This document shows, in pieces, positions 15,873-33,319 of a DNA stretch of 64,000 bases. The stretch covers positions 1,922,001-1,986,000 of the forward strand of contig NZ_CP061718.1 in NCBI RefSeq assembly GCF_014764365.1. Reading direction: 5' to 3'. The number at the start of each line of letters is the position of its first letter. Positions within the stretch are counted from its first letter, which is position 1. Origin of the DNA: Roseococcus microcysteis. Its GTDB lineage: Bacteria; Pseudomonadota; Alphaproteobacteria; Acetobacterales; Acetobacteraceae. Both the position numbers and the translations under genes were made by a program. The notes beneath the pieces were generated by a model. That model was given only the letters and a program-made list of their open reading frames with translations, was not told the DNA's origin and did no database searches.

Positions 15873-16075
15873 TCCGGCGCCGTTTCGTTCCTCACGCGGA
15901 TGATGCTGCGGTTCGCGTTGACACCAGGGGTGCCGCTCAGCGACCTTGAGCTTGCCAGGGGGAGCGAGACGCCAGGCGCCGCATGACGCGGTGATCCGGC
16001 GGGGTTTCGGCCCGATGGCTCCCTCCGGCGATCGGCAGGCCAGCTATTCCGCCAGCCTAACCGGAGGAGGCGCGC

Positions 16076-17378: not shown

Positions 17379-18665
17379 CTAGCCCAGCCGGGCCACCAGG
17401 TTTTCCAGCCGCTCCTGCCCGCCCGAGCGCGGCCGGGGCTCCAGCCCTTCGGCCAGCGCGCGATCCGCGATCTCGGCCAGGCTGCCGGGCCAGGGCGCGC
17501 CCGCATAGCGTTCGCGCCGCGCGGCTTCCAGCCGTCCATCCTCGATGATGCGCGCGGCCCAGAGCAGCGCGGCGGCGCAGGCCTCCATGCCGCCCACATG
17601 GGCGTGCAGCAGATCCTCGGGCGCGATGGATTGCCGGCGCAGCTTGGCGTCGAAATTGAACCCGCCGCTGCCCAGGCCGCCCGCGCGCAGGATTTCCAGC
17701 ATCACCGGCACAAGCTCCTGCGTATTGGTCGGGAACTGGTCCGTGTCCCAGCCATTCTGCGGGTCGCCGCGGTTGATGTCCACGGAGCCCAGCACACCCA
17801 GCGCGGCGGCCATGCCCACCTCATGCTCGAAGGAATGGCCGGCGAGGGTGGCGTGGTTCGCCTCGATGTTGAGCTTCACCTCGCCCAGCAGCCCGTGCCG
17901 CAGGAGGAAGCCATACACCGTCGCCACGTCGCGGTCGTATTGGTGCTTGGTGGGTTCGTGGGGCTTGGGCTCGATCAACAGCGTGCCCTTGAAGCCGATC
18001 TTGTGCTTGTGCTCCACCACCAGCTTCAGGAAGCGGCCGAGCTGTTCATCCTCCCGCGCCAGATCGGTGTTGAGCAGCGTGTCATACCCCTCGCGCCCGC
18101 CCCACAGCACGTAGTTCTCGCCGCCCAGGCGTTGCGTCACCTCCATGGCGTGGCGCACCTGCACGCAGGCGCAGGCGAAGACCTCGGGGTCCGGGTTGGT
18201 GGCCGCCCCCGCCATGTAGCGCGGGTGGGAAAACAGGTTCGCCGTGCCCCAGAGCAGCTTGATGCCCGTGCGCTGCATGTGCCCGGCCAGCACATCCGCC
18301 ATGGCATCGAGGTTGCGCGCGCCCTCGCGGAGATTCGCCCCCTCCGGCGCCACGTCGCGGTCGTGGAAGCAGAAGAAGGGCAGGCCCAGGCGCTCCATGA
18401 AGGCGAAGCCGGCCTCGGCCTTCTGGCGCGCGCCTTCCATGGCGTCGGGCAGGCCTTCCCAGGGGCGGGGCAGCGTGCCCGCGCCGAAGGGGTCGGCGCC
18501 CGAGGCCACGAAGGAATGCCAATAGGCCACGGAAGGTCGCAGCCATTCGGCCATGCTGCGGCCCAGCACGGGTGCCTCCGGGCGCCAATGGCGATAGCCC
18601 AGCTCCTCCCGGCTGTCGGGGCCCAGGAAGGGCACGGGCGGGAGGGATTCGAAGATGTGGCTCAT
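17379..18665 (-). CDS. xylA: Xylose isomerase
   Basis: Encodes 428 residues, a class II xylose isomerase that converts D-xylose to D-xylulose. Active-site motifs are intact: [12 protein letters not shown] with the catalytic His, the [20 protein letters not shown] block, [16 protein letters not shown] with metal-binding Glu, [17 protein letters not shown] and the [17 protein letters not shown] metal site. It is the last gene of a 13-gene minus-strand operon. The start at 18665 overlaps the stop of xylB by four bases; no transcription stop other than the palindromic element lies beyond it. Confidence 0.96.
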
Positions 18666-20086
18666 CGGGCGGTCTCCCGCATCAGGGGCTTCAGGAGGGG
18701 GTAGAGCTGCGACCAATGCGCGCGCGCCTCGGCCAGCGCCGGTTCGGGCAGCGCCTCGCCGAGGGCGTCCGGCGGGGTGCAGGTGGCGACCGCGTCGGCG
18801 CCGGTGGCCAGCGCGGCGAGCCGCGCCGCACCCAGCGCCGGCCCCACCCCGGCATCGGCCACCAGCGTCAACGGCCGGTCCAGCGCCGAGGCCAGCAGCC
18901 GCGCCCAGAGCCCCGAGCGCGCACCACCGCCGATGAGCGAGAGGCGCGGGATGGGCCCGCCCTCCGCCTCCAGCGCGGCCAGGCCATCGGCCAGGGCGAA
19001 GGCCACGCCCTGCATTACGGCGCGCGCCATCTGGCCGCGCGTGGTGCCGGCCTCCAGCCCGAACCAGAGGCCGCAGGCGGCGGCATCGTCATGCGGCGTT
19101 CGTTCGCCGGCGAGGTAGGGCAGGAACAGCACGCGGCCGGGTTCGGCGGCTTCCGCCTCGCGCGCCAATGTGGCTTCGTCCGCGCCCAGCACCGTGGCCG
19201 CCCAGGCCAGCGCGCCCCCCGCCGAGAGGATGACGGCCATCCGGTGCCACAGCCCGGGCAGGGCGTGGCAGAAGCTGTGCACGGTGCGCGCCGGGTCCGG
19301 GCGCGGCGCCGCATCGGCCACGAAGACCACGCCGGAGGTGCCCAGCGAGACGAAGGCTTGGCCAGGTGCCACGCAGCCCAGCCCCACCGCGCCCGCCGCA
19401 TTGTCCCCCGCCCCGCCCGCCACCGGCACGCCGGCCGGGATGCCCCATTCGGTGTTGACCACCCGGCCCGAGACGGCGCTGCCCTCCACCAGGCGCGGCA
19501 TGTGGGCGCGGGTGAGGCCGGTCAGCGCCAGCATCTCCTCCGACCAGTCGCGCCGCGCGACGTCGAGCCAAAGGGTGCCCGCCGCGTCCGACATCTCGGA
19601 CACCGCCTCGCCCGTCAGGCGCAGGCGCAGCCAATCCTTGGGCAGCAGCACGCGGCGCGTGGCGGCGAAGATGTCGGGCTCCCGCGCGCGCAGCCAGGCG
19701 AGCTTGGGCGCGGTGAAGCCCGGCATGGCGCGGTTGCCCGCGATGCGCCGCGCGGCCGCGTCCAGCGCCGCGCATTCGCCGGCCGCGCGCCCGTCATTCC
19801 ACAGGATGGCCGGGCGCAGCACACGGTCCGCCTCGTCCAGCACCACCGCCCCATGCATCTGCCCGGACAGCCCCACCGCGGCGACGCGCGCGCGCAGCGC
19901 CTCGGGCAGCGCCCGAACCGCCTGGGTGGCGGCGCGCCACCAATCCTCCGGCGTCTGCTCGGACCATCGTGGATGCGGGCGCTGCACCGTCAGCGGCGCG
20001 GACGCCTGGGCCAGCACCTGCCCGCCCTCATCCAGCAGCACCGCCTTCACGGCGGAGGTGCCGAGATCCACGCCGAGGAAGGTCAC
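18662..20086 (-). CDS. xylB: Xylulokinase
   Basis: Encodes 474 residues of the FGGY carbohydrate-kinase family; xylulokinase phosphorylates D-xylulose for the pentose-phosphate pathway. It opens with the ATPase motif [20 protein letters not shown]. It shows the sugar-site block [15 protein letters not shown] and [13 protein letters not shown], and in the second half GTSGVVF and [11 protein letters not shown] (FGGY signature 2). The start is GTG 20086, overlapping the stop of the upstream oxidoreductase gene in GTGA. Position directly before xylA supports the substrate. Confidence 0.94.
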
Positions 20087-21219
20087 ACCACCGTCCAGGC
20101 GCCGCCGGCCCGCGCCGAGGCGATGGCGGCGGCCACGAAGCGCATGCCGCGCAGCCCGTCCTCGACATTGGGGGTGGCGGTGCTGAGCGGGTCGGGCGCG
20201 CGGCCCTCGCGGCGCGCCGTGATCTGCTCGGCCGCGTCACGGTAGATCTGCGCGAAGGCCTCCAGATACCCCTCCGGATGTCCGGCCGGAATGCGCGTGG
20301 CGTGGGCCGCGGCGGGGTGCAACGCGCCGACCGCGCGGGCCAGCACGCGCGGCGCCTCGCCCAGCGGGGTGTGGAGCAGCTGGTTCGGGTGTTCCTGGCT
20401 CCAGGCCAGCCCGCCCCTCTCGCCATAGATGCGCAGGCGCAGCGCGTTCTCATTGCCCGGCGCGACCTGCGAGGACCACAGCATCCCGCGCGCCCCGCCC
20501 GCGAAGCGCAGCAGCAGATGGGCGTTGTCGTCCACGCGGCGGCCTTCCACGAAGCTCTGCACATCGGCCAGCACGCTCTCGACCTGGAGGCCCGTGACGA
20601 ACTCCGCGAGATGATGTGCATGGGTGCCGAGATCGCCCAGCGAACCACCCAGCCCCGCCCGCGCCGGGTCGGTGCGCCATTCGGATTGCTTCTGCCCCGT
20701 CTCCTCCAGCCGGGTGGAGAGCCAGTCCTGCGGGTATTCCACCTGCACGACGCGGATGGCGCCGAGCTCGCCCGCGCGCACCATCGCCTGCGCCTGCCGG
20801 ACCATCGGGTGGCCACTGTAGTTGTGGGTGAGGACGAAGATGCGCCCGCTGCGCGCCACGGTCGCGACCAGATCCTCGCCCTGCTCCACCGTCAGCGCGA
20901 GGGGCTTGTCGCAGATCACGTCGAAGCCCGCTTCCAGCGCGGCCTTCGCGGGGGCGTGGTGCATGTGGTTGGGCGTGACGATGGCGACCACCTCCGCGCC
21001 ATCCTCCCGCCCGCGCTCGCCCGCCAGCATCGCCGCGAAATCCGGATAGCCGCGGATGCCGAGATCTGCCGCGCTGTCCATGGCGCGCTGCGGGTCGGAG
21101 GCCAGCGCCCCCGCCACCAGATCGAAGCAGCCATCCAGCCGCGCGGCCATGCGGTGCACGCCACCGATGAAGGCCCCGCGCCCACCCCCCACCATGGCGA
21201 GTCTGAGGCGCCGGGTCAC
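20083..21219 (-). CDS. Gfo/Idh/MocA-family sugar oxidoreductase
   Basis: Encodes 378 residues. The N-terminal Rossmann domain (LAMVGGGRGAFIGGVHRMAA) binds NAD(P). The ICDKPLALTVEQGEDL motif near residue 102 carries the family lysine. The C-terminal domain has GGSLGDLGTHAHHLAEFVTG. Such enzymes oxidise or reduce sugars, inositols and related compounds. The start is GTG 21219, overlapping the stop of the isomerase gene. Pairing with a sugar-phosphate isomerase/epimerase is a common catabolic combination; the substrate is unknown. Confidence 0.9.
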   Translation of the reverse strand: MTRRLRLAMVGGGRGAFIGGVHRMAARLDGCFDLVAGALASDPQRAMDSAADLGIRGYPDFAAMLAGERGREDGAEVVAIVTPNHMHHAPAKAALEAGFDVICDKPLALTVEQGEDLVATVARSGRIFVLTHNYSGHPMVRQAQAMVRAGELGAIRVVQVEYPQDWLSTRLEETGQKQSEWRTDPARAGLGGSLGDLGTHAHHLAEFVTGLQVESVLADVQSFVEGRRVDDNAHLLLRFAGGARGMLWSSQVAPGNENALRLRIYGERGGLAWSQEHPNQLLHTPLGEAPRVLARAVGALHPAAAHATRIPAGHPEGYLEAFAQIYRDAAEQITARREGRAPDPLSTATPNVEDGLRGMRFVAAAIASARAGGAWTVV

Positions 21220-22280
21220 GGCGCGAGGCCCAGCATGCGGCGGTTCGCCGCCTCATCCGCGCCGGAGGAGGCGAAGTCGTCGAAGGCCTTCTCCGTGACG
21301 CGGATGATGTGGTCCGCGATGAAGCGCGCCCCCTCGCGCGCACCATCCTCGGGGTGCTTCAGGCAGCATTCCCATTCCAGCACCGCCCAGCCCTCGAAGC
21401 CGAAGGCGGCGAGCTTCGAGAACACCGCCTTGAAATCCACCTGGCCATCGCCCAGCGAGCGGAAGCGGCCCGCGCGGTCCACCCAGGGCTGGAAGCCGCC
21501 ATAGACGCCGACGCGGCCGGTCGGGCGGAACTCGGCATCCTTCACGTGGAACATGCGGATACGCTCGCGGTAGATGTCGAGGAAGGCCACATGGTCCAGC
21601 GCCTGCAGCACGAAATGGCTGGGGTCGTAGAGGATGTTCGCGCGGGGGTGGTTGCCGACCGCGTCGAGGAACATCTCGAAGCTCGCGCCATCGTGCAGAT
21701 CCTCGCCGGGATGGATTTCGTAGCAGACATCCACGCCCGCCTCGTCGAAGGCATCGAGCAGCGGGCGCCAGCGCCGCGCGAGCTCCCCGAAGGCCGTCTC
21801 CACCAGCCCCGCCGGGCGCTGCGGCCAGGGATAGACGAAGGGCCAGGCCAGCGCACCCGAGAAGGTGGCGTGCGCGTTGAGGCCCAGGTTGCGCGAGGCG
21901 CGCGCCGCGAGGCGCATCTGCCCCATCGCCCATTCCTGCCGCGCCGCCGGGTTGCCGCGCACCTCGGGTGCGGCGAAGCCGTCGAAGGCGGCGTCATAGG
22001 CCGGATGCACGGCCACGAGCTGCCCTTGCAGATGCGTGGACAGTTCCGTCAGCGCCAGCCCGTGCTTCGCCAGCGTGGCCTGCACGTCCTCGCAATAGGC
22101 ACGGCTCTCGGCGGCCTTCGCGAGGTCAAACAGCCGCGCATCCCAGGAGGGGATCTGCACCCCCTTGAAGCCGAGCGAGGCCGCCCAGGCGGCGATGCCC
22201 TCCAGCGTGTTGAATGGCGCCTCATCCCCCGCGAATTGCGCGAGGAAGATGGCAGGGCCCTTGATGGTCTTCATGGTCAT
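21216..22280 (-). CDS. Sugar-phosphate isomerase/epimerase (AP-endonuclease-2 fold)
   Basis: Encodes 354 residues of the xylose-isomerase-like TIM-barrel family. Metal-binding features include CYEIHPGEDLHDG near residue 188, ILYDPSHFVLQ near 220, HVKDAEFRPTG near 250 and WECCLKHPEDGAREG near 310. The start at 22280 overlaps the stop of the quinone oxidoreductase gene in ATGA. It probably isomerises or epimerises a keto-sugar together with the neighbouring Gfo/Idh/MocA enzyme. Confidence 0.88.
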   Translation of the reverse strand: MTMKTIKGPAIFLAQFAGDEAPFNTLEGIAAWAASLGFKGVQIPSWDARLFDLAKAAESRAYCEDVQATLAKHGLALTELSTHLQGQLVAVHPAYDAAFDGFAAPEVRGNPAARQEWAMGQMRLAARASRNLGLNAHATFSGALAWPFVYPWPQRPAGLVETAFGELARRWRPLLDAFDEAGVDVCYEIHPGEDLHDGASFEMFLDAVGNHPRANILYDPSHFVLQALDHVAFLDIYRERIRMFHVKDAEFRPTGRVGVYGGFQPWVDRAGRFRSLGDGQVDFKAVFSKLAAFGFEGWAVLEWECCLKHPEDGAREGARFIADHIIRVTEKAFDDFASSGADEAANRRMLGLAP

Positions 22281-23251
22281 GGCACCAGCACCAGCGAACC
22301 CGTGGTCCGCCTCCCTTCGAGATCGGAATGCGCCTTCGCGGCATCGGCCAGCGCGTAGCGCGCCGGTGGCGCCACCTTCACGGCCCCCGAGGCCACGACG
22401 TCGAACAGCGCGCCCGCCATGCGCAGCAGATCGGGCCGCTTCGCCGTGTAATGGAACAGCACGGGGCGCGAGAGGGTCGCCGATTTCGCCGAGAGCAGCG
22501 AGGGCGCGATGGGCTCGATCGGCCCGCTGCTCTGCCCGAAGGAGACGAGGCGGCCGCACAGCGCCAGGCTCTCCATCGAATCCGCGAAGCTGTCGCGGCC
22601 GATGCCGTCATAGATGACGCGGCAGCCCGCGCCGCCCGTGATCTCCTTCACCCTGGCGGCGAAGCCTCCGCCGCGGGTGATGATGGGGTGGTCGCAGCCA
22701 TTCGCCAGCGCCAGCGCCGCCTTCTCCTCGGTGGAGACGGTGCCGATGACGGTGCAGCCCAGATGCCGCGCCCATTGGCACAGCAGCAGCCCGACGCCGC
22801 CGGCCGCCGCGTGCACCAGCACATGGTCGCCCGCGCGCACCGGCGCCGTCTCGTGCAGGAGGTATTGCGCCGTCATGCCCTTCAGCATGATGGAGGCCGC
22901 GATGTCGTCACCGATCGCGTCCGGCAGCTTCACCATCTGCGCGGCCGGAGCGAGCCGCGCCTCGGCATAGGCGCCGGTGGGCGGGCAGGCATAGGCGACG
23001 CGGTCGCCGGGCCGCAGCCCGTCCACGCCGGCACCCACCGCCTCCACCACCCCCGCGCCCTCCATGCCGATGATCGCGGGCAGGCCGGGCAGCGGGTACA
23101 GCCCGGTGCGGTGATAGATGTCGATGTAGTTCACGCCGATCGCGGTCTGGCGCAGCCGCACCTGGCCCTCGCCGGGCGCGCCGGGGTCATGCTCGGCGGG
23201 GCGCAGCACCTCGGGGCCGCCGGTCGTCTCGATCAGGATGGCCTGCGGCAT
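22277..23251 (-). CDS. Zinc-free quinone oxidoreductase (QOR, MDR family)
   Basis: Encodes 324 residues. The QOR-type pattern is clear: a GroES-like N-terminal half with VNYIDIYHRTGLYP, the GMEGAGVVEAVG loop without zinc ligands, LLHETAPVRAGDHVLVHAAA with GGVG for NADPH binding, and CTVIGTVSTEEKAALA. Members reduce quinones or activated alkenes with NADPH. It starts one base after the stop of the SRPBCC gene, so it is translated within the operon. The natural substrate here is unknown. Confidence 0.9.
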   Translation of the reverse strand: MPQAILIETTGGPEVLRPAEHDPGAPGEGQVRLRQTAIGVNYIDIYHRTGLYPLPGLPAIIGMEGAGVVEAVGAGVDGLRPGDRVAYACPPTGAYAEARLAPAAQMVKLPDAIGDDIAASIMLKGMTAQYLLHETAPVRAGDHVLVHAAAGGVGLLLCQWARHLGCTVIGTVSTEEKAALALANGCDHPIITRGGGFAARVKEITGGAGCRVIYDGIGRDSFADSMESLALCGRLVSFGQSSGPIEPIAPSLLSAKSATLSRPVLFHYTAKRPDLLRMAGALFDVVASGAVKVAPPARYALADAAKAHSDLEGRRTTGSLVLVP

Positions 23252-23252
23252 C

Positions 23253-24167
23253 TCAGCGCCCTCCGGCCAGGCGGGCGGCCACCGTCGCATAGGCCTTCAG
23301 GTAGACGTCCCGCTCGGTGTTCGGGATCAGCGAGAGGTCGTCCTGCGGGCTGGCCGCCCAGTCGCCCCACCAGGTGGCGAAGCAATGGTCCGTGTCCGTC
23401 ACGCGCCACAGGCGGGGGCCGCTGACATAGCGCACCCAGGGAAGCTCGGATTTCGTGATGTAGTAGGAGTAGCTCATCTCCTCATCGTCCAGGTGCAGCA
23501 GCACCTCGTTCAGATGGCCGGGGCCGAACATGAAGTCGCGCGTGCCGGACACCTTGTCGGGCCGCACCCCGCCCAGCATGTGCATCTTCGTGATGTCGGG
23601 GTGCCATTCGCCCATGGAGGCGAAGTCGCGGATGATGCCCCAGATGGCGCCGGCCGGCGCGGGAATGACGGTGCTGCACCAGACCTTGTTGGGCGGGAAG
23701 CCGGCCCAGAGCGGCGCCTCCACCGGCGCGCGGCCCGCAAGGGCCTGCTTCAGCGCGTCCCACCCGCCCTTGAAGACGCCGTTGGAGACGATGTCCACAT
23801 ACTTCCCCGCATCCTCCGGCGCCTCGTCGAAGGTCGCTTCCCATTCGGCGAAGGTGCGGTTCGTGTCCGTCACCGGCAGCAGCCGCACGCGGGCGCGGTA
23901 GTTCGTCACGGGGAAGGCCGGCGTCTCGAAATTGTAGGAGAAGCTGGTGGTGCGGTCGCAGAGATGCAGCAGCCGCTCACGCACCATCGTCCCGTCCTGC
24001 AGGAAGAAGCGGCGGATGCAGCCGACCACGTCGGAATCGAGCCCGTCCTCGATCTCCGACCGCGCGATGGCGGGGTGCCAGGTGGGCAGGCCGTTGAAGT
24101 CGCGGATCACGGACCAGACGGTGGCGATGTTCGCGTCGAGGATGGTGGAGGCGTAGGCGCGGGCCAT
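23253..24167 (-). CDS. Protein with two tandem SRPBCC domains
   Basis: Encodes 304 residues made of two polyketide-cyclase/Bet-v-1-type SRPBCC domains. Domain one (about 1-150) has IATVWSVIRDFNGLPTWHPA and domain two (about 165-300) AGAIWGIIRDFASMGEWHPD. Each repeats the family pattern ...W..IRDF....WHP.I. These helix-grip folds bind hydrophobic ligands or catalyse lyase/cyclase steps. GAGGGGAAC precedes the start at 24167. No partner is recognisable except by operon position, between the PEP-hydrolase-like and quinone oxidoreductase genes. Confidence 0.85.
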   Translation of the reverse strand: MARAYASTILDANIATVWSVIRDFNGLPTWHPAIARSEIEDGLDSDVVGCIRRFFLQDGTMVRERLLHLCDRTTSFSYNFETPAFPVTNYRARVRLLPVTDTNRTFAEWEATFDEAPEDAGKYVDIVSNGVFKGGWDALKQALAGRAPVEAPLWAGFPPNKVWCSTVIPAPAGAIWGIIRDFASMGEWHPDITKMHMLGGVRPDKVSGTRDFMFGPGHLNEVLLHLDDEEMSYSYYITKSELPWVRYVSGPRLWRVTDTDHCFATWWGDWAASPQDDLSLIPNTERDVYLKAYATVAARLAGGR

Positions 24168-24178
24168 GCGTGTTCCCC

Positions 24179-25009
24179 TCAGAAGCTGATCTGCTTGAAG
24201 GCGCGGGTCTGCGCCGTCAGCGCGGTCTCGGTCGGCAGGCGCTCCATGGAGGAGGCGCCGTAGAAGCCGTTGATGCCCGGCGTGTTCCGCAGCACCCAGG
24301 CGGCGTCCTCGGGCGAGGAGATGGGCCCGCCATGGCAGAGCACGATGATGTCCGGCCGCACGCGCCGCGCCGCCTCGGCCCATTCGGCGATCAGCGCCGG
24401 GCAGTCCTCCAGCTTCAGTGCCGTCTGCGCGCCGATGGCCCCGCCGGTGGTGAGGCCAAGATGCGGCACCAGGATGTCGGCGCCGGCGCGCGCCATCTCC
24501 GCCGCTTCGTCGGCGTTGAAGACATAGGGCGTGGTCAGCATGTCCTTGGCGTTGGCCATGCGGATCATGTCGATCTCATGCCCGAAGCCCATGCCGGTCT
24601 CTTCGAGGTTGGCGCGGAACACGCCGTCAATGAGCCCCACCGTCGGGAAGTTCTGGATGCCGGCGAAGCCCAGCGCCTTCAGCTCGTCCAGCAGGTGGTC
24701 CATCAGCGCGAAGGGGTCCGTGCCGTTCACGCCCGCGATGACGGGCGTGTGCTTCACCACCGGCAGCACCTCGCGCGCCATTTCCTTCACGATCTCATTG
24801 GCATTGCCATAGGCGAGCAGCCCGGCCAGCGAACCGCGCCCCGCCATGCGGTAGCGCCCGGAATTGTAGATGACGATAAGGTCTATCCCGCCCGCCTCCT
24901 CGCACTTGGCGGAAAGCCCGGTGCCGGCGCCGCCGCCGATGATGGGCTCGCGCCGCGCCACCATGTCGTGGAACTTGCGCAGCAACTCACCGCGCGTGAG
25001 GCGTTTCAT
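24179..25009 (-). CDS. PEP-hydrolase-family TIM-barrel protein
   Basis: Encodes 276 residues of the family once called TIM-barrel signal-transduction protein (PF09370 type). Motifs include [66 protein letters not shown] and the C-terminal [20 protein letters not shown]. The reaction is uncertain; annotation as phosphoenolpyruvate hydrolase is by family name only. The start overlaps the UPF0261 gene stop by one base (TGATG). In the plant and fungal Tm-1 type protein these two domains form one chain, so the two products here probably work together. A regulator with the same domain lies at 31682-33319. Confidence 0.88.
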
Positions 25010-26208
25010 CAGGCGATCTCCCGGAAGACGGCCAGCGCGGCGTCGGCGAAGGCACGGTCATTGATGGCGGCCGGCACCTCGATGAGGCGCCGGTTGGGGG
25101 CGGGCACGAAGCCCGCACGGATGGTGTCGAACAGCGCGGCATCGGCCGCCGGGTCGTGGAAGGGCATGCCCGGCACATCAATGGCCGAAACCCCGCCCAG
25201 CGGCAGCAGGAAGCGCACGGGGCCCTCCATGCGGTTCAGCCGCGCCAGGAGGAACTCCGCGATGGCGCGGTTCTCCTCCGGCGTGGTGCGCATCAGCGTC
25301 ACCTGCGGGTTGTGGACGTAGAGGTTGCGGGACTGGAAGCGCGCGGGCACCGTCTCCTTCGCGCCGAAATTCACCATGTCCACCGCGCCCACGCTGCCGA
25401 CATAGGGGAGGCGCGTGCGGATGACCGCACCCAGCCTGTCCTCCGTGCAGGGGAACACGCCGCCCACCAGGAAGTCCGGCACCTCGGTCGTCGTGATGTC
25501 GAGCAGGGCGGCGACCAGGCCGGAATCCGCCAGCTTCTCCATGCTTTGCCCGCCCGCGCCGGTGGCGTGGAAGACGTAGCATTCATGGGTGGCTTCCAGC
25601 GCCTCGCGCAGCATGGTCACGCAGGCGGTGGTGACGCCGAACATGGAAAGCCCAAGCCCGGGCTTCTCGGCGGCATCGGCGGCCGGCGGCGCGTTCAGCG
25701 CCATCCCCGCCGCCGCATGCGCCGCATTGGCGATGACGCGGCGCGAAATGGCGTTGATCCCCGCCACATCCACCACCGAATACATCATGGCGAGGTCCGA
25801 CGGCCCCACATAGGGCGCCACATTGCCCGAGGCCACCGTGCTCACCATCAGCTTGGGCGTGCCGATGGGCAGGGCGCGCATGGCCTGGGTGACGAGGGCG
25901 GTGTTCCCCGACCCGCCCATGCCCAGCACCGCGCCGATGTCGTCGCGCGCCGAGAGCCAGCGCGTCAGCGCCTCCGCCATGGCGCCCACGGCGGCGCCAC
26001 GGTCGTCGCGGCCCAGCACCGCGCCGGCGCCGTCCGGGTGGTGCGCCGCGATCTCGGCCGCGGTCACATCGGCGCCCTGCCCCGCACCGCGCGTGCCGAC
26101 ATCCACCAGGACCGGCACCGCACCCGCGCGCCTGAGGCAATCGGCCGCGAAGCGCAGCTCCTCGCCCTTCGTGTCCATCGTGCCGATGACGTAGACCTTC
26201 GCCGTCAT
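25009..26208 (-). CDS. UPF0261/Tm-1-like ATP-binding protein
   Basis: Encodes 399 residues. The opening [20 protein letters not shown] and the following [23 protein letters not shown] and [15 protein letters not shown] are the UPF0261 signature. The tomato virus-resistance protein Tm-1 has the same N-terminal domain, which binds ATP. In bacteria the biochemical role is not known to me. It is followed with a one-base overlap by its usual partner, the TIM-barrel gene, and preceded 10 bases away by livF, so it belongs to the transporter operon. Confidence 0.9.
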
Positions 26209-26218
26209 TCCATCCCCC

Positions 26219-26923
26219 TCAATGATGCCCGCCCACCGCGACGCCGAGGTAGCGGCGCTGCGTCTCGGTGTCCTCGGCCAGGGCGCGCGCCGGCATGGTG
26301 GCGGCGATGCGCCCCGTGACCATGATGGCCACATGCGCCGCGACCTCGGTCGCGACGCGCAGATTCTGTTCGACCAGCAAGAGGCGCATGCCGTCCTTCG
26401 GCAGGTCGCGCAGCACGCCGATCAGGTGGTCCACGATGACGGGGGCCAGGCCTTCGCTCGGCTCGTCCATCACGATGACCTTGGGGTTCATCAGCAGCGC
26501 GCGCGAGATGGCGAGCATCTGCTGCTCGCCGCCCGAAAGCTCGGTGCCGCCATTGTTGCGGCGCTCCGCCAGGCGCGGGAAAGTCTCGTAGACGCGCGGG
26601 ATGGTCCAGCGGCCACCGCGCTGGGCCACCAGCTTCAGATGCTCATGCACCGAAAGCGAGGGAAAGGTGCGCCGCCCCTGCGGCACCAGCGCCACGCCGC
26701 GCCGCGCGATGCGATAGGGGGCCAGGCCCGAGAGCCGCGCGCCATCCAACGTGACCTCGCCCTCGCTCGCCGCCACCAGCCCCGAGATGGCGCCGCAGAG
26801 CGTCGTCTTGCCCATGCCGTTTCGCCCGACGATGGCGAGCGGCGCCGCGCCAAGCTCCAGCGAGACGCCCTGCAGGATATGCGCCTGGCCGAAGCGGACA
26901 TGCAGGTCGCGCACGGTCAGCAT
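26219..26923 (-). CDS. livF: LivF-type ABC transporter ATPase
   Basis: Encodes 234 residues. Walker [10 protein letters not shown] near residue 35, signature [15 protein letters not shown] near 129, Walker [14 protein letters not shown], and the LLLVEQNL segment typical of LivF. It hydrolyses ATP to drive uptake through LivH/LivM. It overlaps the livG stop by one base (TGATG). The gene set at 26219-31006 is one complete high-affinity branched-chain-amino-acid-type (HAAT) importer. Confidence 0.93.
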
Positions 26924-27693
26924 CAGTGGCCGCCCCCGAGATAGATGGCCTGCACCACCGGGTCGTCCTCGATGCGGTCGGGCGTGGCTTCCACCACCAC
27001 CTCGCCATCCTTCATGACGGTGACGATGTCGGCCGCGGGCAGCGCGATGTCCATGTCGTGCTCGATCAGGATCAGCGTGAGTGTGCGCGGCAGCTCGCGC
27101 AGCAGGCGCAGCAATTCCGGCCGGTCGCCGGGGGAGAGGCCGGCCGCGGGCTCGTCCAGCATCAGCACGCGCGGATCGCCCGCCAGCGCCATGCCGACCT
27201 CCAGCTGCCGTCGCTGGCCGTGCGAGAGGTTCACCACCTCCACATCCAGCAGGTGCGACAGGCGCATGCGCTCGGCCAGCGCGCGTGCCTGCGCGAGGCC
27301 CGGATCGTCGCGGCCCGGCCGCAGGAAGGAAAAGCGGTTGGGCCGCAGCCCGCGCACCGCGATGAAGAGGTTGTCCCGCACCGACAGCCCGTTGAACAGC
27401 AACGAGGTCTGGTAGGTGCGCCCGATGCCCAGCCGCGTGCGCTGGTGCGGCTTGAGCCGCGTGATGTCCGTGCCGAAGAGCTCGATGCGGCCCGCGGTGG
27501 GCGGAAAGTCGCCGCAGATGGTGTTGAACAGCGTCGTCTTGCCCGCCCCGTTGGGGCCGAGCACGGCCCGCCGCTCCCCGGGCATGACGTCGAAGCTGAC
27601 GTCACGCACGGCCTGCAAGGCGCCGAAGCGGCGGCTGACGCCGGTCAATCGGATAGCGGGATGCACTCGGTTCTTTCCAGACAAGACAGACAT
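26923..27693 (-). CDS. livG: LivG-type ABC transporter ATPase
   Basis: Encodes 256 residues from ATG 27693. Walker A GPNGAGKTTLFNT, the LivG-typical insertion GRTYQTSLLFNGLSVRDNLF, signature LSHGQRRQLEVGMALA (LSHG in place of LSGG, normal for this subfamily), Walker B VLMLDEPAAGLSP and the IEHDMDIAL motif are present. It is separated from the binding-protein gene by 136 bases with two strong hairpins. The start codon is not preceded by a good Shine-Dalgarno; a GTG 27 bases further in is an alternative. Confidence 0.93.
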   Translation of the reverse strand: MSVLSGKNRVHPAIRLTGVSRRFGALQAVRDVSFDVMPGERRAVLGPNGAGKTTLFNTICGDFPPTAGRIELFGTDITRLKPHQRTRLGIGRTYQTSLLFNGLSVRDNLFIAVRGLRPNRFSFLRPGRDDPGLAQARALAERMRLSHLLDVEVVNLSHGQRRQLEVGMALAGDPRVLMLDEPAAGLSPGDRPELLRLLRELPRTLTLILIEHDMDIALPAADIVTVMKDGEVVVEATPDRIEDDPVVQAIYLGGGH

Positions 27694-27734
27694 TGAAGAC
27701 ACGGACGCCCAAGCCACGCGCCGCCCCCCGGTGC

Positions 27735-27786
27735 CCTCCCGAGGCTTAGCCTCGGGAGGCGGTGCCTGCCCGGCAGGACGGGCACC
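27735..27786 (-). terminator. Intra-operon hairpins between binding-protein gene and livG
   Basis: A perfect 11-base stem (CCTCCCGAGGC / GCCTCGGGAGG, loop of three, 27735-27759) is followed by a second hairpin (GGTGCC...GGCACC, 27761-27786). Neither has a T-run, so they probably stabilise the 3' end of the binding-protein message or cause partial termination. That would explain extra binding protein relative to ATPases. Inferred from structure only. Confidence 0.5.
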
Positions 27787-27829
27787 AAGCCGGGGCCCCC
27801 GCGACGGCGCGAAGCGACGTCGTGGGGAA

Positions 27830-29107
27830 CTACGAAGCCGCCGGCACGCAGCCGGGGTTGTCGCGCGAGGGCGCGCCGAGGGCGAGGAACTGCGCCTCCG
27901 GCGTGTTCAGCGTCTGGTTCACGCCCTCGGCACGGGCGAAGGCCACCACCTGCGCCCGCCCGTCACGCTCCTCGATGCGGTTGAGGAAGATGTCGGAGAT
28001 GGCCTGGCGGTTGTGGTCCAGCCGCACCGCCGCCCCCGTGGGCGCCGTGATGCGCGCGGCCGCGAGGGCGCGCTGGAAGGCCTCCTGGTTGTTGCCCAGG
28101 TCGCCATCCACCTCGCGCAGCGCGTGCAGGATGCCGTAGAGGTTGGTGGTGTAGTTCACGCCATGGATGGAGGGCGACTGGAACCCGCCCTCGTTCAGCC
28201 AGCGGCGGCGATAGCGCTCCACGAATTCGCGCCAGGTCGGGTCGTCGATCACGTCGGCGATGGGCCCGCCGGAGATCATCCCCACCATCACGCGGCGATG
28301 CGGCCCGCGCGCCGAGAGCATGGTCTGGTCCGCCATGATGGAGCCCGCGATCAGCGGCTTGTTCCCGCCCGACTGCGCGTATTGCGTCATGAAGGCGAGG
28401 CCGTCGGTGCCGCCATGCACCACGACCACGGCGCCGGCCGAGGAGCGGTTGATCTGCGCGATCTGGGCCGAGAAATCGGTGGTGCCGAGCGGCGCCCAGT
28501 AATGCTGCACCCGCCCGCCGGCGCGGCAATACTCGATGTTGAAGCCGAAGACCTGCGCGTAGGGGAAGGCGTAGTCACCGGCCGCGACGGCCACTTCGCG
28601 GATGTTCATGTTGCGGAAGACATGGTTGCCGAGGCCGGCCATCCACTGCGTGCCATCGGTCGAGAAGCGGAAGAAGTTGGGCGAGGGGTTGCGCAGCGTG
28701 GTGTCCGCGGCACCCGAGGACCCGTTGACGATGGTCTTGCCCGTCAGCGTGCGCGAATAGTCGCGCAGCGCGATGCCCTCGGCGCCCGAAAGCGGCCCGA
28801 GGATGATGTCCACATTGTCCTGCTCGATCAGCTTGCGCGCGCGGGCCAGCGCCACATCGGCCTGGGCGTTGGAGCTTTCGCGGATGAACTCGATGCGCCG
28901 GCCGCCGACGGTGGAGTTGATGCGCTCCAACTCCATCTGCACGCAGCGGAAGGAATCCTGCCCGCCGGTGGCGAAGGGGCCTTCCAGCGTGGTCAGCCCG
29001 CCCAGGCGGATGGGCGCGCGCTGCGCGATGGCGGGCGAGGCGAGGGCCGCGCCCGCAAGCCCCGCGCTACCCAGAAGCGTCGCGCGGCGGGTGGTGGTGA
29101 TGGACAT
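27830..29107 (-). CDS. Periplasmic binding protein of the HAAT transporter
   Basis: Encodes 425 residues. A twin-arginine-like signal (TTTRRATLLGSAGLAGAALA, cleavage at AIA-Q) leads into a Peripla_BP_6 domain, with IRLGGLTTLEGPFATGGQDS and the NGSSGAADTTLRNPSPNFFR block. AGGAGG precedes the start at 29107. The gene sits between livM and livG in the same operon, 38 bases after livM, so it feeds this transporter. The ligand is not evident; neighbours suggest an organic acid or sugar derivative rather than an amino acid. Confidence 0.93.
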   Translation of the reverse strand: MSITTTRRATLLGSAGLAGAALASPAIAQRAPIRLGGLTTLEGPFATGGQDSFRCVQMELERINSTVGGRRIEFIRESSNAQADVALARARKLIEQDNVDIILGPLSGAEGIALRDYSRTLTGKTIVNGSSGAADTTLRNPSPNFFRFSTDGTQWMAGLGNHVFRNMNIREVAVAAGDYAFPYAQVFGFNIEYCRAGGRVQHYWAPLGTTDFSAQIAQINRSSAGAVVVVHGGTDGLAFMTQYAQSGGNKPLIAGSIMADQTMLSARGPHRRVMVGMISGGPIADVIDDPTWREFVERYRRRWLNEGGFQSPSIHGVNYTTNLYGILHALREVDGDLGNNQEAFQRALAAARITAPTGAAVRLDHNRQAISDIFLNRIEERDGRAQVVAFARAEGVNQTLNTPEAQFLALGAPSRDNPGCVPAAS

Positions 29108-29145
29108 GTTGTTTCCTCCTTGCGTGTTGTCGTTGTGGTGGAAAT

Positions 29146-30138
29146 TCACTTGTCGGCCGCGCGGCGCGTGAGCAGGCGGCGCAGCCGCGCGCCCACCCCC
29201 AGCACCCCGTCGGGCGAGGCCAGCACGATGACCAGGAAGACAAGCCCGATCAGCGTGTTGAAGCGGTCGCGGTCGTAGATGGTGGCCGCGAAGGTGTCGA
29301 AGACCGTGAAGATGAGGGAGCCGAGGAAGGCCCCCACCGGGTGCCCCAGCCCGCCGATGACGGCCATGATCAGCACGTTCACCGTGGCCCCCAGCCCGAT
29401 CGTGCCGGGCGAGATGCCGATGTTGTAGATGGTGGCGAGCACCCCGCCGCAGCCCGCGATGAAGCCCGCCACGCCGAAGGCCGCGATGCGGTGCAGCGCC
29501 ACGTTGTAGCCCAGCGCCGAGACCCGCCGCGGATTGTCGCGGATGCCCTGCAGCACCAGCCCGAAGGGCGAGCGCACGAGATACATCACCGCCGCGAAGA
29601 GCAGCACGGCCGTGCCCAGCGTGACGTGGTAGAAGACCCAGGGGTTGCGGAAATCGAGGCCCCAGAGGCTCGGCCCCACCACGTTGCGGATGCCCTCATA
29701 GCCGTTGAACCAGGTGATGTTCGTCTCGACGAAGCGGAACACGCCCATGGACAGCGCCAGCGTGATCATCAGCAGGTAGATGTCGCGCGTGCGCACCGCG
29801 ATGGCGCCCACCAGCAGCCCCATCAGCGTCGCCGCCAGCACGCCCAGCGGAATGGCCAGCGCATAGCCCGCGCCGCCCACGATGCGCGGCACCGCACCTT
29901 CCACGAAGATGGCGAGCGTGTAGCCCGCCACCCCCGCGATCATCATCTGCGCGAGCGAGACGAAGCCGCCATAGGTGGCCAGGAAGGTCAGCGACATGGC
30001 GATGATGCCGAAGACCAGCGCGCGGCCCAGGATGTTGCCCATCCAGAACCCCGCCTGGTTGGCCGGCAGCACGGCGTGCAGCAGCCAGGGCAGCGCCAGA
30101 AGCCCCAGCGCGGCGGCAATGGCGAGCCCCCTACGCAC
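29146..30138 (-). CDS. livM: LivM-type ABC transporter permease
   Basis: Encodes 330 residues with about nine membrane helices. The BPD_transp_2 pattern is present, including GGFVSLAQMMIAGVAGYT, AIAVRTRDIYLLMITLALSM and GIRDNPRRVSALGYNV, the loop that contacts the ATPase. The C-terminal part carries AVIGGLGHPVGAFLGS. The start is GTG 30138, eight bases inside the end of livH. LivM and LivH together form the channel of the importer. Confidence 0.93.
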   Translation of the reverse strand: MRRGLAIAAALGLLALPWLLHAVLPANQAGFWMGNILGRALVFGIIAMSLTFLATYGGFVSLAQMMIAGVAGYTLAIFVEGAVPRIVGGAGYALAIPLGVLAATLMGLLVGAIAVRTRDIYLLMITLALSMGVFRFVETNITWFNGYEGIRNVVGPSLWGLDFRNPWVFYHVTLGTAVLLFAAVMYLVRSPFGLVLQGIRDNPRRVSALGYNVALHRIAAFGVAGFIAGCGGVLATIYNIGISPGTIGLGATVNVLIMAVIGGLGHPVGAFLGSLIFTVFDTFAATIYDRDRFNTLIGLVFLVIVLASPDGVLGVGARLRRLLTRRAADK

Positions 30139-31006
30139 GGCCCAGGATCCCCTGCGGGCGCAGCGCCAGCACCGCGACCATCATCACGAAGGTCAGCACC
30201 ACGGAGTATGTGGGGAACATGGCCTGGCCCAGCTGCTCGGCCAGCCCCACCAGGACGGCGCCCACCGCCGTCCCGGTGACGGAGCCCATGCCGCCCACGA
30301 TGACGACGACCAACGAGATCAGCAGGAAGCGCCCATCCTGCCCCATGGCCAGCGGCTGCGCGGTGGAGCCGATGACGCCCCCCAGCCCGCACAGCGCCGC
30401 CCCCAGCGCGAAGACGGCGACACCCACCAGCGGCACGTTCACGCCGCAGGCGCCCAGCATCTCGCGGTCATCCACCCCGGCACGGATCATCATGCCGAGC
30501 CGCGTGCGGTTCAGCAGCAGCCAGAGCCCCAGGCCCACCGCCACCGCCACGCCGATCTGCACCAGGCGGAAGGTCGGGTAGCCGCCCACCAGCGGCACCT
30601 GGGTGGAGCCGAAGATGGCATCCGGCGCGAAGAACTGTCGCGGGTTGCCGCCATAGATGGCCAGGATCTGGTCGGCCGCGATGATGGAGATGCCGATGGT
30701 GACGAGCGCCTGGCGCAGCTCCTGCCCCTGCATCCAGCCCAGCAGCACCTGTTGCAGCAGCGCGCCGAACACCGCCGCCGCCAGCACGCCCGCCGCCAGC
30801 CCCGCATACCAGGCCCACCAGAGGTCCTGGTCATAGAGCGGCTCGAACACCGCGTAGCCGACATAGCCGGCCACGAGATACAGGGTGCCATGCGCCATGT
30901 TCACCACGCGCATGAGCCCGAAGATCAACGAGAAGCCGCTGGCCACGATGAAGTAGAGGGCAGCCAGGGTCAGCCCGTTCAAGACGATGGTGGCCGCCAA
31001 TTCCAT
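30131..31006 (-). CDS. livH: LivH-type ABC transporter permease
   Basis: Encodes 291 residues of the other permease, with about eight helices. Motifs include GFSLIFGLMRVVNMAHGTLY near the N-terminus, GMMIRAGVDDREMLGACGVN for ATPase contact, and VVVIVGGMGSVTGTAVGA. It is the first gene of the 13-gene operon that runs to xylA. Its start at 31006 lies 110 bases from the divergent half-barrel gene, so the operon promoter must be in that gap. Confidence 0.93.
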   Translation of the reverse strand: MELAATIVLNGLTLAALYFIVASGFSLIFGLMRVVNMAHGTLYLVAGYVGYAVFEPLYDQDLWWAWYAGLAAGVLAAAVFGALLQQVLLGWMQGQELRQALVTIGISIIAADQILAIYGGNPRQFFAPDAIFGSTQVPLVGGYPTFRLVQIGVAVAVGLGLWLLLNRTRLGMMIRAGVDDREMLGACGVNVPLVGVAVFALGAALCGLGGVIGSTAQPLAMGQDGRFLLISLVVVIVGGMGSVTGTAVGAVLVGLAEQLGQAMFPTYSVVLTFVMMVAVLALRPQGILGRA

Positions 31007-31100
31007 GCGGTCGTTCGCTCCCCATGGCCGCTCATGCGACGGCCTGGGTTCAGCCTCGACCGGAGGCGGCCCCGGCAACAAGATGGAAATTTGTTTGTTT

Positions 31101-31117
31101 TTGGGTAAGATTGGGTA
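31101..31117. promoter_or_regulatory. Direct repeat in the divergent livH promoter region
   Basis: TTGGGTA occurs twice with ten-base spacing (31101-31107 and 31111-31117), one helical turn, within an A/T-rich stretch that stands out from the GC-rich surroundings. Tandem half-sites on one face of the helix suit binding of a dimeric regulator; the regulator at 31682-33319 is a natural candidate. The second copy overlaps the ATG of the plus-strand gene. Confidence 0.45.
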
Positions 31118-31668
31118 TGCCACCCACCTTGCACCCCGCCGCGTCTCTCGACGGCTTGCCCACCCGGCAAAGAGCGCGCCGGGTCTTCCTGCCGGCGCTG
31201 GCCCCCTTCCCGCCCGCGCTCTGGCCGCTGGTGGTGCATCTGCCGGTGCTGGACGTGAACGGGGCGCTGGTGGCCGCACTGGCGGCCCAGGCGCCCTTCC
31301 GCGCGGCCCCGCCCATCGCCGCCATCTTCGCCTGCGACCCGTTCCTGCGTCCGCGCGACATGGCCGCCAGCCTGCGCGCGGCCGGCATCACGGAGGTGGT
31401 GAACCTCCCCAGCGTCCAGGCGCATGAGGGCGAGGCGGCGGCCGCGCTGGGCGCCGTGGGCTATCGGGCGGAACGCGAATTCCGCGTGCTGCTGGCACTC
31501 GCCGAGCACGGGTTGCGACCCATCGCCTATGCCGCCCGGCAGGAGGAAGCCGAGGCCGCCCTGGCGCTGGGCCTGCGCCGCCTGCTCCTGCCCGCCGGCC
31601 CCGGTTGGGCCGAGCTGGCCAGCCATGTGGCGGTGGAGGGCGGCGAGGCGCTGGCCTGGGCGCCATGA
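31117..31668 (+). CDS. Half-length relative of the PEP-hydrolase TIM barrel
   Basis: Encodes 183 residues. The stretch from residue 67 to 162 (IAAIFACDPFLRPRDMAASL, AAGITEVVNLPSVQAHEG, LAEHGLRPIAYAARQEEAEA) aligns by eye with the middle of both the regulator (FFGAAACDPRLDLP, GIANFPTAIH, LAYAKTRAEAQAM) and the enzyme-like protein at 24179. It lacks the N-terminal NSGR loop and the C-terminal GGP and ERLP parts, so it cannot form a whole barrel of the usual kind. It is divergent from livH and ends 13 bases from the convergent regulator gene. It has no Shine-Dalgarno. It may be a decaying duplicate or an accessory ligand-binding protein. Confidence 0.65.
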   Translation: MPPTLHPAASLDGLPTRQRARRVFLPALAPFPPALWPLVVHLPVLDVNGALVAALAAQAPFRAAPPIAAIFACDPFLRPRDMAASLRAAGITEVVNLPSVQAHEGEAAAALGAVGYRAEREFRVLLALAEHGLRPIAYAARQEEAEAALALGLRRLLLPAGPGWAELASHVAVEGGEALAWAP

Positions 31669-31681
31669 CCGCGTCTGACCG

Positions 31682-33319
31682 CTAGGCCTCCAGCCCCAGC
31701 CGCCGCATCCGGTTGTAGAGCGTCTTCCGCGCGATCCCGAGGAAGGCCGCCGTCTCGCCGCGGCGGAAGCGGTGGCGGCGCAGCGCGTCCATGATCCAGG
31801 CGCGTTCGTCCAGCGCCTCGGGCGCGGCGGGCGGCTCGGCGGGGCCCAGCACCGCCTCCAGCGCCGCGACGGTCACGCGCCCGCCCGGCGTCTCGGTCAG
31901 CGTCCGCAGCAGCACCTCACGCAATTCGCGCAGATTGCCCGGCCAGGACCGCGCCATCAGCAGGCGCAGCGCGGCAGGCTCCACCGCGCTGGCGGCGCGG
32001 CCCGCCTCGCGCAGCATGGCGCGGGTGATGAGGGGGATGTCCTCCAGCCGGTCCCGCAGCGGCGGCACCACCAGGCGCTGCGCCGACAGCGCCCGCGCCA
32101 GCCCCTGCGCGCCCGGCGGGTGCACCAGCACCAGGCGCGCGCGGGGCCGGCGTTCCTCCGGCGTGCCGAAGCGCGCGAAGGCCCCGCGCTCGATCCAGTC
32201 CGACAGGCGGGCGCGCAGCACGGGCGGCAGGGCGTCCGCCTGCTCGATCACCACCGTCACCCCCTGCCGGCCCAAGAGCCCGCGCGGCGGGTCGGCCGAG
32301 AGGGCGGAAGCGATGTCCTCCCGCGCGTCCAGGAAGATCGGCCCGCCCGCGCGCCCCGCCCCCGCATGCAGCGCCCGCGCGACGGTGGAGCGGCCCGAGC
32401 CCGGCTCCCCCTCCACGACCACGGGCAACTCGGTCGCGACCAGACGGGCCACGCGCTGGGCCAGCGTCCGCGCCGCCGCCGAACGCCCCACCATGCCGCG
32501 CGGCAGGGCGGGCGAGGCCGCCTCGGCCGGGCGCAGCAGGGCCGCGGTCTTGAAGGCGGAGGTGCTCTGCATCACCGAGAGTTCCAGCGGCAGGCGGTCC
32601 AGCGTGGAGCCGCCCACATAGCCATCGGCGCGCGAGGCGTCGCAGACCTGGAGCATATGCTGCGCGTCCACGATGGGCCCGCCCTCCACCAGGCAGCGGA
32701 TGCCCGGGGCACGGCGGCGCAGGGCGGCGAAGACGCGCCGCGCGCGCTCGGCCGCGTCCTCCAGTCGCACGCCGCCGGGCACGCCCATGCTGCCGCCAGC
32801 GTTCCAGCCGAAATTGAGCACCAGGCGCTCCACCCCCGCATCGGCCATGGCCTGGGCTTCCGCGCGGGTCTTGGCATAGGCGAGGGTGGCGAGGCCCTGG
32901 GCGCGGGCCTCGGCCAGCAGGGCCACCTCGCGCCCGAAGCCCAGCCCCGCCGCCTCCAGCGCCTGGCGCAGCGCGCCGTCGAAATGGATGGCGGTGGGGA
33001 AGTTGGCGATGCCGTGATAGCCGGCCTCGCGGATGCCGGCCACGAAACGCGGCAGGTCGAGCCGCGGGTCGCAGGCGGCGGCGCCGAAGAACACGGGAAT
33101 CCGCACCCGGTCCAGGATTTCGCGCCGGGCGAAGGCGTCGGTGAAGGGGTTGCTGTCGGCGATGGGCAGCATGGCGGCGAGCGAGGGCGCGCCCATGACG
33201 CGCAGCCGGCCGGCGTTCAGCACCAGCAGGAAATCCGCCCCGCCATCGGCGGCCGCGCGGGCCGTCATGCCCAGGCCGATCGCCGCCCCCACCAGGATGT
33301 CCCGCTTCAAGCCGCGCAT
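31682..33319 (-). CDS. TIM-barrel (PEP-hydrolase-like) / AAA+ / Fis-HTH regulator
   Basis: Encodes 545 residues. Residues 1-262 are a PEP-hydrolase-family TIM barrel (LVLNAGRLRVMGAPSL near 32, ACDP 82-85, EGGPIVDAQHM near 212, GGSTLDRLPLELSVMQSTSA near 236). Residues 275-470 resemble a sigma54-activator AAA+ domain: Walker A GEPGSGRST (304-312), LRDRLEDIPL and WPGNLREL. The last 40 residues are a Fis-type HTH (FRRGETAAFLGIARKTLYNR). The GAFTGA loop and the ESELFGH block are absent, and Walker B reads VVIEQAD instead of FLDE, so it probably does not activate sigma54. It starts 13 bases behind a tRNA gene, without a Shine-Dalgarno. Confidence 0.87.
   Translation of the reverse strand: MRGLKRDILVGAAIGLGMTARAAADGGADFLLVLNAGRLRVMGAPSLAAMLPIADSNPFTDAFARREILDRVRIPVFFGAAACDPRLDLPRFVAGIREAGYHGIANFPTAIHFDGALRQALEAAGLGFGREVALLAEARAQGLATLAYAKTRAEAQAMADAGVERLVLNFGWNAGGSMGVPGGVRLEDAAERARRVFAALRRRAPGIRCLVEGGPIVDAQHMLQVCDASRADGYVGGSTLDRLPLELSVMQSTSAFKTAALLRPAEAASPALPRGMVGRSAAARTLAQRVARLVATELPVVVEGEPGSGRSTVARALHAGAGRAGGPIFLDAREDIASALSADPPRGLLGRQGVTVVIEQADALPPVLRARLSDWIERGAFARFGTPEERRPRARLVLVHPPGAQGLARALSAQRLVVPPLRDRLEDIPLITRAMLREAGRAASAVEPAALRLLMARSWPGNLRELREVLLRTLTETPGGRVTVAALEAVLGPAEPPAAPEALDERAWIMDALRRHRFRRGETAAFLGIARKTLYNRMRRLGLEA

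Follow-up and report, generated by a model that had tools for sequence, protein, structure and literature searches.

How is a UPF0261/PEP_hydrolase (PEPH) enzyme pair controlled, and what do two further relatives of the PEPH barrel do beside it? These questions are raised by a locus of Roseococcus microcysteis (Acetobacteraceae), analysed here in a window of 64,000 nucleotides (contig NZ_CP061718.1, positions 1,922,001 to 1,986,000). Three TIM barrels of the PF09370 type lie in this window: the enzyme form (24179-25009, minus strand), a shortened form termed here the mini-barrel (31117-31668, plus strand), assigned as a companion of the regulator from Pfam, AlphaFold2, Foldseek, co-occurrence and substitution rates, and a domain of the regulator itself (31682-33319, minus strand). 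In the regulator, Pfam, alignments and AlphaFold2 place a PEP_hydrolase-type barrel (residues 7-258) together with a degenerate sigma54-type AAA+ domain lacking the GAFTGA loop and a Fis-type helix-turn-helix (HTH). Here it is proposed, as a fairly probable explanation, that these genes form a local sensing module for the UPF0261/PEPH pair, in which a pseudo-enzyme regulator would read a metabolite of the pair and act at a TTACCCA repeat, with the mini-barrel as its partner.

A profile search of the 4.2 Mb single-contig genome gave PF09370 matches in three places, all inside the window, confirming the three barrels noticed in an earlier sequence-only reading as the only ones of the genome; the enzyme form (429.8 bits), the regulator barrel (244.4 bits) and the mini-barrel (35.4 bits) all pass the cut-off of 33.8 bits. 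Hydrolase activity on phosphoenolpyruvate or a similar compound is a prediction carried by the family name. Among solved structures, PDB 2p10 came out nearest to each of the three barrels, compared separately; it matches the enzyme form by sequence (E 4.6e-122) and the regulator barrel by predicted structure (template modelling score, TM, of 0.80-0.81 by target length), the AlphaFold2 model of the regulator (predicted local distance difference test, pLDDT, 80.5; predicted TM, pTM, 0.61) having an eight-strand barrel. For the mini-barrel model, Foldseek ranks all six 2p10 chains first among PDB structures (TM 0.64-0.70 by query length, root-mean-square deviation 4.7-5.8); by sequence, no credible match to it was found among solved structures. 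The mini-barrel has 183 amino acids, compared with 276 in the enzyme form, and had been taken for a half-length barrel. Its best AlphaFold2 model, made with 11 sequences, has seven strands (pLDDT 85.4, pTM 0.85; four other models 67.5-80.0), so that with fair to high model confidence it is predicted to be a compact, shortened barrel and not half of one.

Residues were compared by aligning 69 enzyme forms with 78 regulators and 76 mini-barrels, positions being numbered by the window enzyme. E37, Y48, H183 and H226 are invariant in the enzyme forms, and we infer from this invariance that they are catalytic. The regulators have alanine instead of E37 (76/78), leucine instead of Y48 (78/78), asparagine instead of H183 (73/78) and glutamate instead of H226 (75/78), and they keep R52, R54, N71, N120, E145, GGPI (227-230), S253, R257 and P259 in 78/78. 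At the four positions the window regulator has A, L, N and E and the mini-barrel L, L, P and a gap, leaving 24179-25009 as the only barrel there with all four. Because these polar substitutions are near-fixed, the regulator barrel is probably a pseudo-enzyme sensor with the scaffold kept; the earlier suggestion of an enzyme-derived sensor domain gains strength from them as a putative assignment. The mini-barrels keep N71 (75/76), D98 (75/76), N120 (73/76), P122 (76/76), E145 (74/76) and H183 (44/76); the one in the window has N71, D98, N120, P122 and E145 and is without the NSGR loop, the glycine motif of the first strand and GAS..RLP of the eighth.

The distribution of these genes was followed in a family sample of 249 genomes, a class draw of 385 genomes and a phylum draw of 398 genomes. 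PF09370 was found in 50 of the family genomes, a regulator-length match in 11 and the mini-barrel in the same 11; two genomes of the same genus (G175, G216) had no PF09370 match at all. A mini-barrel profile, which was built from these 11 genomes and finds them by construction, gave no further case in the 238 regulator-free family genomes, where it matched only the enzyme form and, in G069, a fragment at 23 bits. The class draw includes eight further regulator loci, with the mini-barrel in 8/8, and genome G661 of the phylum draw has a regulator with a weak adjoining mini-barrel match (27.4 bits). A scan of named species used 18 regulators as queries, and the best 80 of 315 relatives were kept, giving 79 named loci with flanks of up to 10 kb, which rarely extend to the far end of the operon and are in some cases cut by contig ends; from their species names, these are presumably alpha- and gammaproteobacterial. 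Judged by the regulator, Roseococcus thiosulfatophilus and R. suduntuyensis stand nearest among named species (97% identity). The mini-barrel is present at 75 of the 79 named loci, and for three of the four without it (L081, L104, L106) a contig end cuts the locus. At 72 loci both UPF0261 and PEPH are present, the other seven (L056, L071, L078, L079, L081, L104, L106) ending, by our reading of their ends, before the expected position. By these comparisons, regulator, mini-barrel, UPF0261 and PEPH form a constant unit at all regulator loci with enough sequence, except that one lacks the mini-barrel. Further copies of the pair were also observed: in L046 (246-11398), beside one regulator, the main pair is followed downstream by a divergent second PEPH (45% to that of the window), another UPF0261 match and part of a third PEPH, and L050 and L128-L130 have a divergent paralogous set (UPF0261 and PEPH at about 35-39% to those of the window) with its own regulator and mini-barrel.

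The ratio of nonsynonymous to synonymous substitution rates (dN/dS) of the mini-barrel was 0.11-0.37 in all 16 pairs compared (dS being saturated in one pair); the regulator over its full length gave 0.03-0.19 and the enzyme 0.02-0.12; judged from these ratios, the mini-barrel evolves faster than regulator and enzyme, yet is under purifying selection. That it is a chance open reading frame or a decaying gene was ruled out by the co-occurrence and dN/dS together. Of the 75 named loci that have it, 53 place the mini-barrel close to the regulator on the opposite strand and 15 at a greater distance from it on that strand; in the others the two share a strand, close together in 5 and apart in 2. 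The mini-barrel precedes the regulator on the same strand in L041 (overlapping by 7 bp, with a GTG start chosen by the analyst), in L043 and in five named loci. In L037, L038 and L042 the convergent ends of the two genes overlap by about 36 bases, with an RRRIRL-type mini-barrel tail antisense to HTH codons.

Nine close loci share a non-coding block between the mini-barrel and livH, in which TTACCCA is directly repeated every ten bases. In the window, motif scans place this operator-like repeat (TACCCA-N4-TACCCA read on the minus strand) at 31102-31117, its last plus-strand base being the first base of the mini-barrel start codon; in the genome, the pattern with up to one mismatch occurs once, as this exact copy, and a reversed control pattern also has one match. 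In 73 of 75 regions (74 named and the window) the conserved operator-like repeat, TTACCCAaTnTTACCCA, stands upstream of the mini-barrel at 13 bits or more in a weight matrix trained on the same regions, compared with 26 matches in the 1.36 Mb outside, taken as sequence beyond +/-700 bp; the seed CCC[ACT]-N4-TACCC is found in 48 of 75 named target regions, compared with 0.34 matches expected from the rest of the same loci. The matrix misses L113 and L115, and L113 has strong matches elsewhere in the locus. The site is on the operon side of the mini-barrel in most loci. Matches outside these regions stand at the start of importer operons in L110 and L128 (genes by Pfam), which we take to be of the CUT1 type from their MalK-type ATPase and SBP_bac_1 domains, at like positions in L100, L103, L105, L111, L112, L129 and L130 (by position only, with no gene assignment), and, in L119-L122 and L124, some 85-115 nt ahead of the regulator match. 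A CTTG at 31079-31082 (minus strand), which from comparison of close relatives may be a -35 element toward livH, lies 19 nt from the repeat; this spacing is constant in most close relatives, with the repeat upstream of CTTG toward the operon. Such a spot upstream of the -35 element is a usual position for an activator. We infer that the repeat is the putative site of this regulator and not of another factor.

The window regulator has Sigma54_activ_2, Sigma54_activat, AAA_lid_14 and HTH_8 all above cut-off, and with them the AAA+ and Fis-type HTH parts of a bacterial enhancer-binding protein (bEBP); the GAFTGA loop of bEBPs is absent from it, and the strict -24/-12 pattern of their target promoters is absent from window positions 10001-38000. 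The Walker B motif is eroded in the window lineage, and Walker A is lost in L044-L049 and unrecognised in 14 complete named regulators. GAFTGA is lost in 69 of 78 assessable named loci and intact in nine (L081 is cut before that part); in an alignment of 19 further regulators, including that of the window, it is found in L041 alone. A weighted -24/-12 score was taken over the 700 bp upstream of the mini-barrel and compared with 100 shuffles. At every one of the nine intact loci, no more than 1/100 shuffles scored as high as the top operon-facing site. Many degenerate loci also score 13.1, mostly through TGGCGCAYGGCTCGCT-like strings, which are read as livH coding sequence (MAHGSL). A tighter pattern, TGGCAYG-N5-TGCW, fixed after the first scores were known, occurs within 500 bp of the mini-barrel in 9/9 intact and 0/66 degenerate named loci (effectively 65, L071 being cut there), with 17 occurrences in total across all 79 loci (1.49 Mb). 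L041, a tenth intact case with this promoter, was first noticed through another pattern. By the tighter pattern, GAFTGA-intact regulators go with a sigma54 promoter before the operon, and degenerate ones are without it; at the intact loci the operator sites are weaker (13.4-23.2 bits) and in either orientation. In a tree of barrel and HTH columns, from a short search and with several long branches flagged, the ten intact rows cluster with the GAFTGA-lost L043 inside; regain of GAFTGA is unlikely, so several losses are implied, within the limit set by the free position of the root. Loss of the sigma54 gene (rpoN) as the cause was ruled out for the family, sigma54 being present in 11/11 regulator-bearing genomes, including that of the window. 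Because GAFTGA and the sigma54 promoter are both missing and the repeat is kept, the comparison suggests that the activator may have shifted from sigma54 to sigma70 in the degenerate lineages. These matched promoter and operator-like sites support the control of the operon by the regulator, put forward in the sequence-only reading, as a candidate. Downstream of the operator-like repeat in L072 and L092, where the regulator is without GAFTGA, TGGCACG is followed by TTGTA or TTGCA at a 12-base spacing; this may be a sigma54 promoter that has been converted.

In the proposed mechanism, the regulator barrel would bind a compound of the UPF0261/PEPH reaction, be it substrate, intermediate or product, upon which the Fis-type HTH, at the TTACCCA direct repeat, would switch on the operon of importer, UPF0261 and PEPH. 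The GAFTGA-bearing form would act as a sigma54 activator at the -24/-12 promoter, and in the window lineage the regulator would probably make contact with sigma70 polymerase, at a promoter lying downstream of a site of that kind. Most likely the mini-barrel, which would usually be transcribed divergently across the operator-like site, serves the regulator as a dedicated partner, either a co-sensor or an antagonist of the same fold. Since the window repeat touches the mini-barrel start codon, binding there could also limit mini-barrel expression. A bolder extension, offered tentatively, is a three-part system derived from one enzyme: the enzyme itself, a transcription factor fused to a pseudo-enzyme that reads the metabolite, and a reduced barrel, which would dock on the regulator barrel through the subunit interface of the enzyme, holding it off or handing it the ligand. 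Regulator and mini-barrel would have come through the change from sigma54 to sigma70 control with the kind of operator unchanged.

Several observations weigh against the sensing module. The other 39 of the 50 PF09370-bearing family genomes have enzyme-form or fragment matches only, so that the enzyme is under other control there, and PF09370 occurs without such a regulator in 31/40 cases of the class draw and 23/27 of the phylum draw; in the regulator-free family locus L019 the pair is 84% and 88% identical to that of the window. Because many relatives keep the enzyme alone, regulator and mini-barrel are, in the genomes compared, an add-on to the UPF0261/PEPH enzyme and not a constant part of it. 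This outcome, for the first refuting condition named in the sequence-only reading, counts against its single system; support comes from the side of the regulator, which the mini-barrel (11/11 compared with 0/238 family genomes, and 75/79 named loci) and the pair accompany. At L116 the neighbourhood is covered and no mini-barrel was found, and the partner role of the mini-barrel comes from its linkage to the regulator only. The operator matrix scores the very regions that trained it, and the tighter promoter pattern was settled on with the first scores in view. The degenerate loci L080 (14.1) and L052 (14.0) score high for -24/-12 sites and L096 scores above all its shuffles, shuffles rarely matching these loci. 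The intact loci form one tree cluster, so the promoter match does not represent ten independent events. Some loci also have second regulators (GntR in L044, LacI in L079), and the repeat could be the site of another factor.

The operon facing the repeat consists of 13 minus-strand genes from livH to xylA that overlap or nearly do so (start codons chosen by the analyst), all of whose products were identified through Pfam or NCBIfam. It begins with a LIV-type importer comprising the BPD_transp_2 permeases livH (30131-31006) and livM (29146-30138), a periplasmic binding protein (27830-29107; Peripla_BP_6) and the ABC ATPases livG (26923-27666) and livF (26219-26923). All parts pass Pfam, and the widest gap, between livG and the binding protein, is about 160 nt. 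The near-overlapping run with a complete LIV set holds as first described. There follow the UPF0261 protein (25009-26208), which has both UPF0261 domains and is a relative of the PDB Tm-1 chains (3wry, E 2.6e-88), the adjoining PEPH enzyme, a two-domain SRPBCC protein (23253-24167; Polyketide_cyc2) and a quinone-oxidoreductase-type MDR enzyme (22277-23251), assigned by profile search and variable between loci. A sugar cassette completes the run: a xylose-isomerase-like TIM barrel (21216-22274; AP_endonuc_2), a Gfo/Idh/MocA oxidoreductase (20083-21219), the xylulokinase xylB (18662-20086) and the xylose isomerase xylA (17379-18665), the last two above the NCBIfam cut-offs. Past the operon end a BLUF blue-light sensor protein is encoded (16076-16729). 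In L044 a flotillin gene (13858-15927, Pfam) lies between the PEPH and SRPBCC genes, with a like-sized gap in L045-L049.

As a constant core the LIV importer was rejected: with the window proteins as tblastn queries, livH, livM and livF were each found in 47 of the 79 named loci, the binding protein in 45 and all five parts at 38% identity or more in 39, some loci being cut. By these comparisons the importer appears exchangeable between loci, either LIV or CUT1, with further enzymes also exchanged. L128 has its CUT1-type importer with PfkB kinase, SDR and HAD hydrolase genes, and L044 has FAA-hydrolase and alpha/beta-hydrolase genes downstream, with a GntR/FCD regulator between mini-barrel and livH. 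As to branched-chain amino acid specificity of the importer, the PDB structures related to its binding protein form a mixed group of weak similarity, led by 4zpj and then 4ey3 and 4evq, which we take to be Rhodopseudomonas aromatic-acid binders. Among ten longer loci, xylAB follow the operon in L033 and L034 of the same genus and are absent from six with several kb covered (L035, L036, L038-L041). They occur in 3 of the 79 named loci (L061, L063, L079), many of which could not show them within the 10 kb flanks, and their restriction to the genus was dropped as an explanation on account of these three. In L061 (1746-9956, Pfam) a CUT1 importer, the isomerase-like barrel, Gfo/Idh, xylB and xylA stand directly before the regulator; in L063 the xylAB part of this cassette stands there; and in L079 (3761-9805) the same four cassette enzymes with a LacI regulator lie between mini-barrel and regulator. 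The cassette thus recurs beside the regulator in three other genera, and no operator-like site was found before it in L061, L063 or L079. The sugar-type compound of the sequence-only reading has some support in this recurrence and in the CUT1 importers with an operator copy; on this weak evidence the compound is perhaps sugar-like or pentose-containing.

Should the 13 genes instead be one pentose-related pathway, an imported xylose-containing or xylose-like compound would be processed by UPF0261/PEPH, Gfo/Idh, the isomerase-like barrel, XylA and XylB. Their contiguity, the cassette by the regulator in L061 and L079, its xylAB part in L063 and the operator-bearing CUT1 importers of L110 and L128, the latter with PfkB, SDR and HAD genes, would fit; however, the rarity of xylAB in the named loci and their absence from six longer ones, the cassettes without an operator-like site, the LacI gene of L079 and the hydrolase genes standing in L044 instead of pentose genes make this unlikely. 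The mini-barrel, too, could work outside regulation, for example as an accessory subunit of the UPF0261/PEPH enzyme: it retains N71, D98, N120 and E145, invariant in the enzymes, its F100 (73/76) is R in 52/78 regulators, and at most loci the putative promoter separates it from the operon. Such a metabolic role is nevertheless quite improbable, since the mini-barrel tracks the regulator and not the enzyme (0/39 family genomes with PF09370 and no regulator) and is without most of the glycine and C-terminal motifs of the enzyme.

Of the alternatives that concern the regulator, one makes the window protein a repressor or a decaying regulator instead of a sigma70-type activator. The eroded Walker B and lost GAFTGA of the window lineage and the lost or unrecognised Walker A motifs elsewhere would fit this, and GAFTGA-less NtrC is described as also repressing genes (PMC10274813). 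The strongly conserved HTH and barrel, the low dN/dS of the whole regulator in all 16 pairs and the constant distance of the repeat upstream of the -35-like CTTG in most close relatives weigh against it, and this alternative is considered unlikely. The regulator barrel might also be a mere oligomerisation scaffold without sensing, in keeping with the six chains (A-F) of the 2p10 enzyme crystal and with the hexamers in which sigma54 activators work (PMC7175178); the residues kept in 78/78 regulators, from R52 and R54 to S253, R257 and P259, are more than a scaffold seems to need, which makes this very improbable. The sensing module around the UPF0261/PEPH pair is preferred to each of these.

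PMC5028733 reports that UPF0261 was found in 491/504 bacterial genomes bearing the PEPH domain, there named TBST and called a signal transduction domain, and that the two co-occur in bacteria and are fused in plants. No functional study of UPF0261 or PEPH/TBST was found in the open-licence literature as far as its texts were available (including PMC5028733, PMC2364660, PMC6867892 and PMC8508112), and no paper found there joins sigma54 enhancer binding with a TIM barrel regulatory domain. For a pair also carried by plants and with no function assigned in the literature found, the regulator offers a handle: an enzyme-derived regulator with a candidate operator would be a route to the metabolite, through a ligand screen on the regulator instead of guessing substrates. 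The regulator family would further provide a natural series for a change of sigma factor in an activator with its site retained, and the mini-barrel a case of a conserved, shortened TIM barrel maintained beside a regulator.

Compared with known systems, the regulator shares the AAA+ and Fis-type HTH domains and the loss of GAFTGA with the GAFTGA-less NtrC proteins, whose action at sigma70 promoters is reported for Rhodobacter capsulatus and argued for Caulobacter (PMC10274813). It differs from them in having a PEP_hydrolase-type barrel as sensor instead of a receiver and a mini-barrel companion gene, and in that one family holds intact and degenerate forms with matching promoter types. The importers have the permeases, ATPases and binding protein of LIV-type or CUT1-type ABC systems, either type depending on the locus. 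Mll9387 (PDB 2p10), titled a putative phosphonopyruvate hydrolase, is the nearest solved structure of all three barrels, and unlike the enzyme form, regulator and mini-barrel are without several polar residues invariant there. The two proteins of the plant Tm-1-like fusions (PF06792/PF09370) are the same as the adjacent UPF0261/TBST pair of this locus, where the enzyme-like form, a regulator-fused form and a third, shortened form of the barrel coexist.

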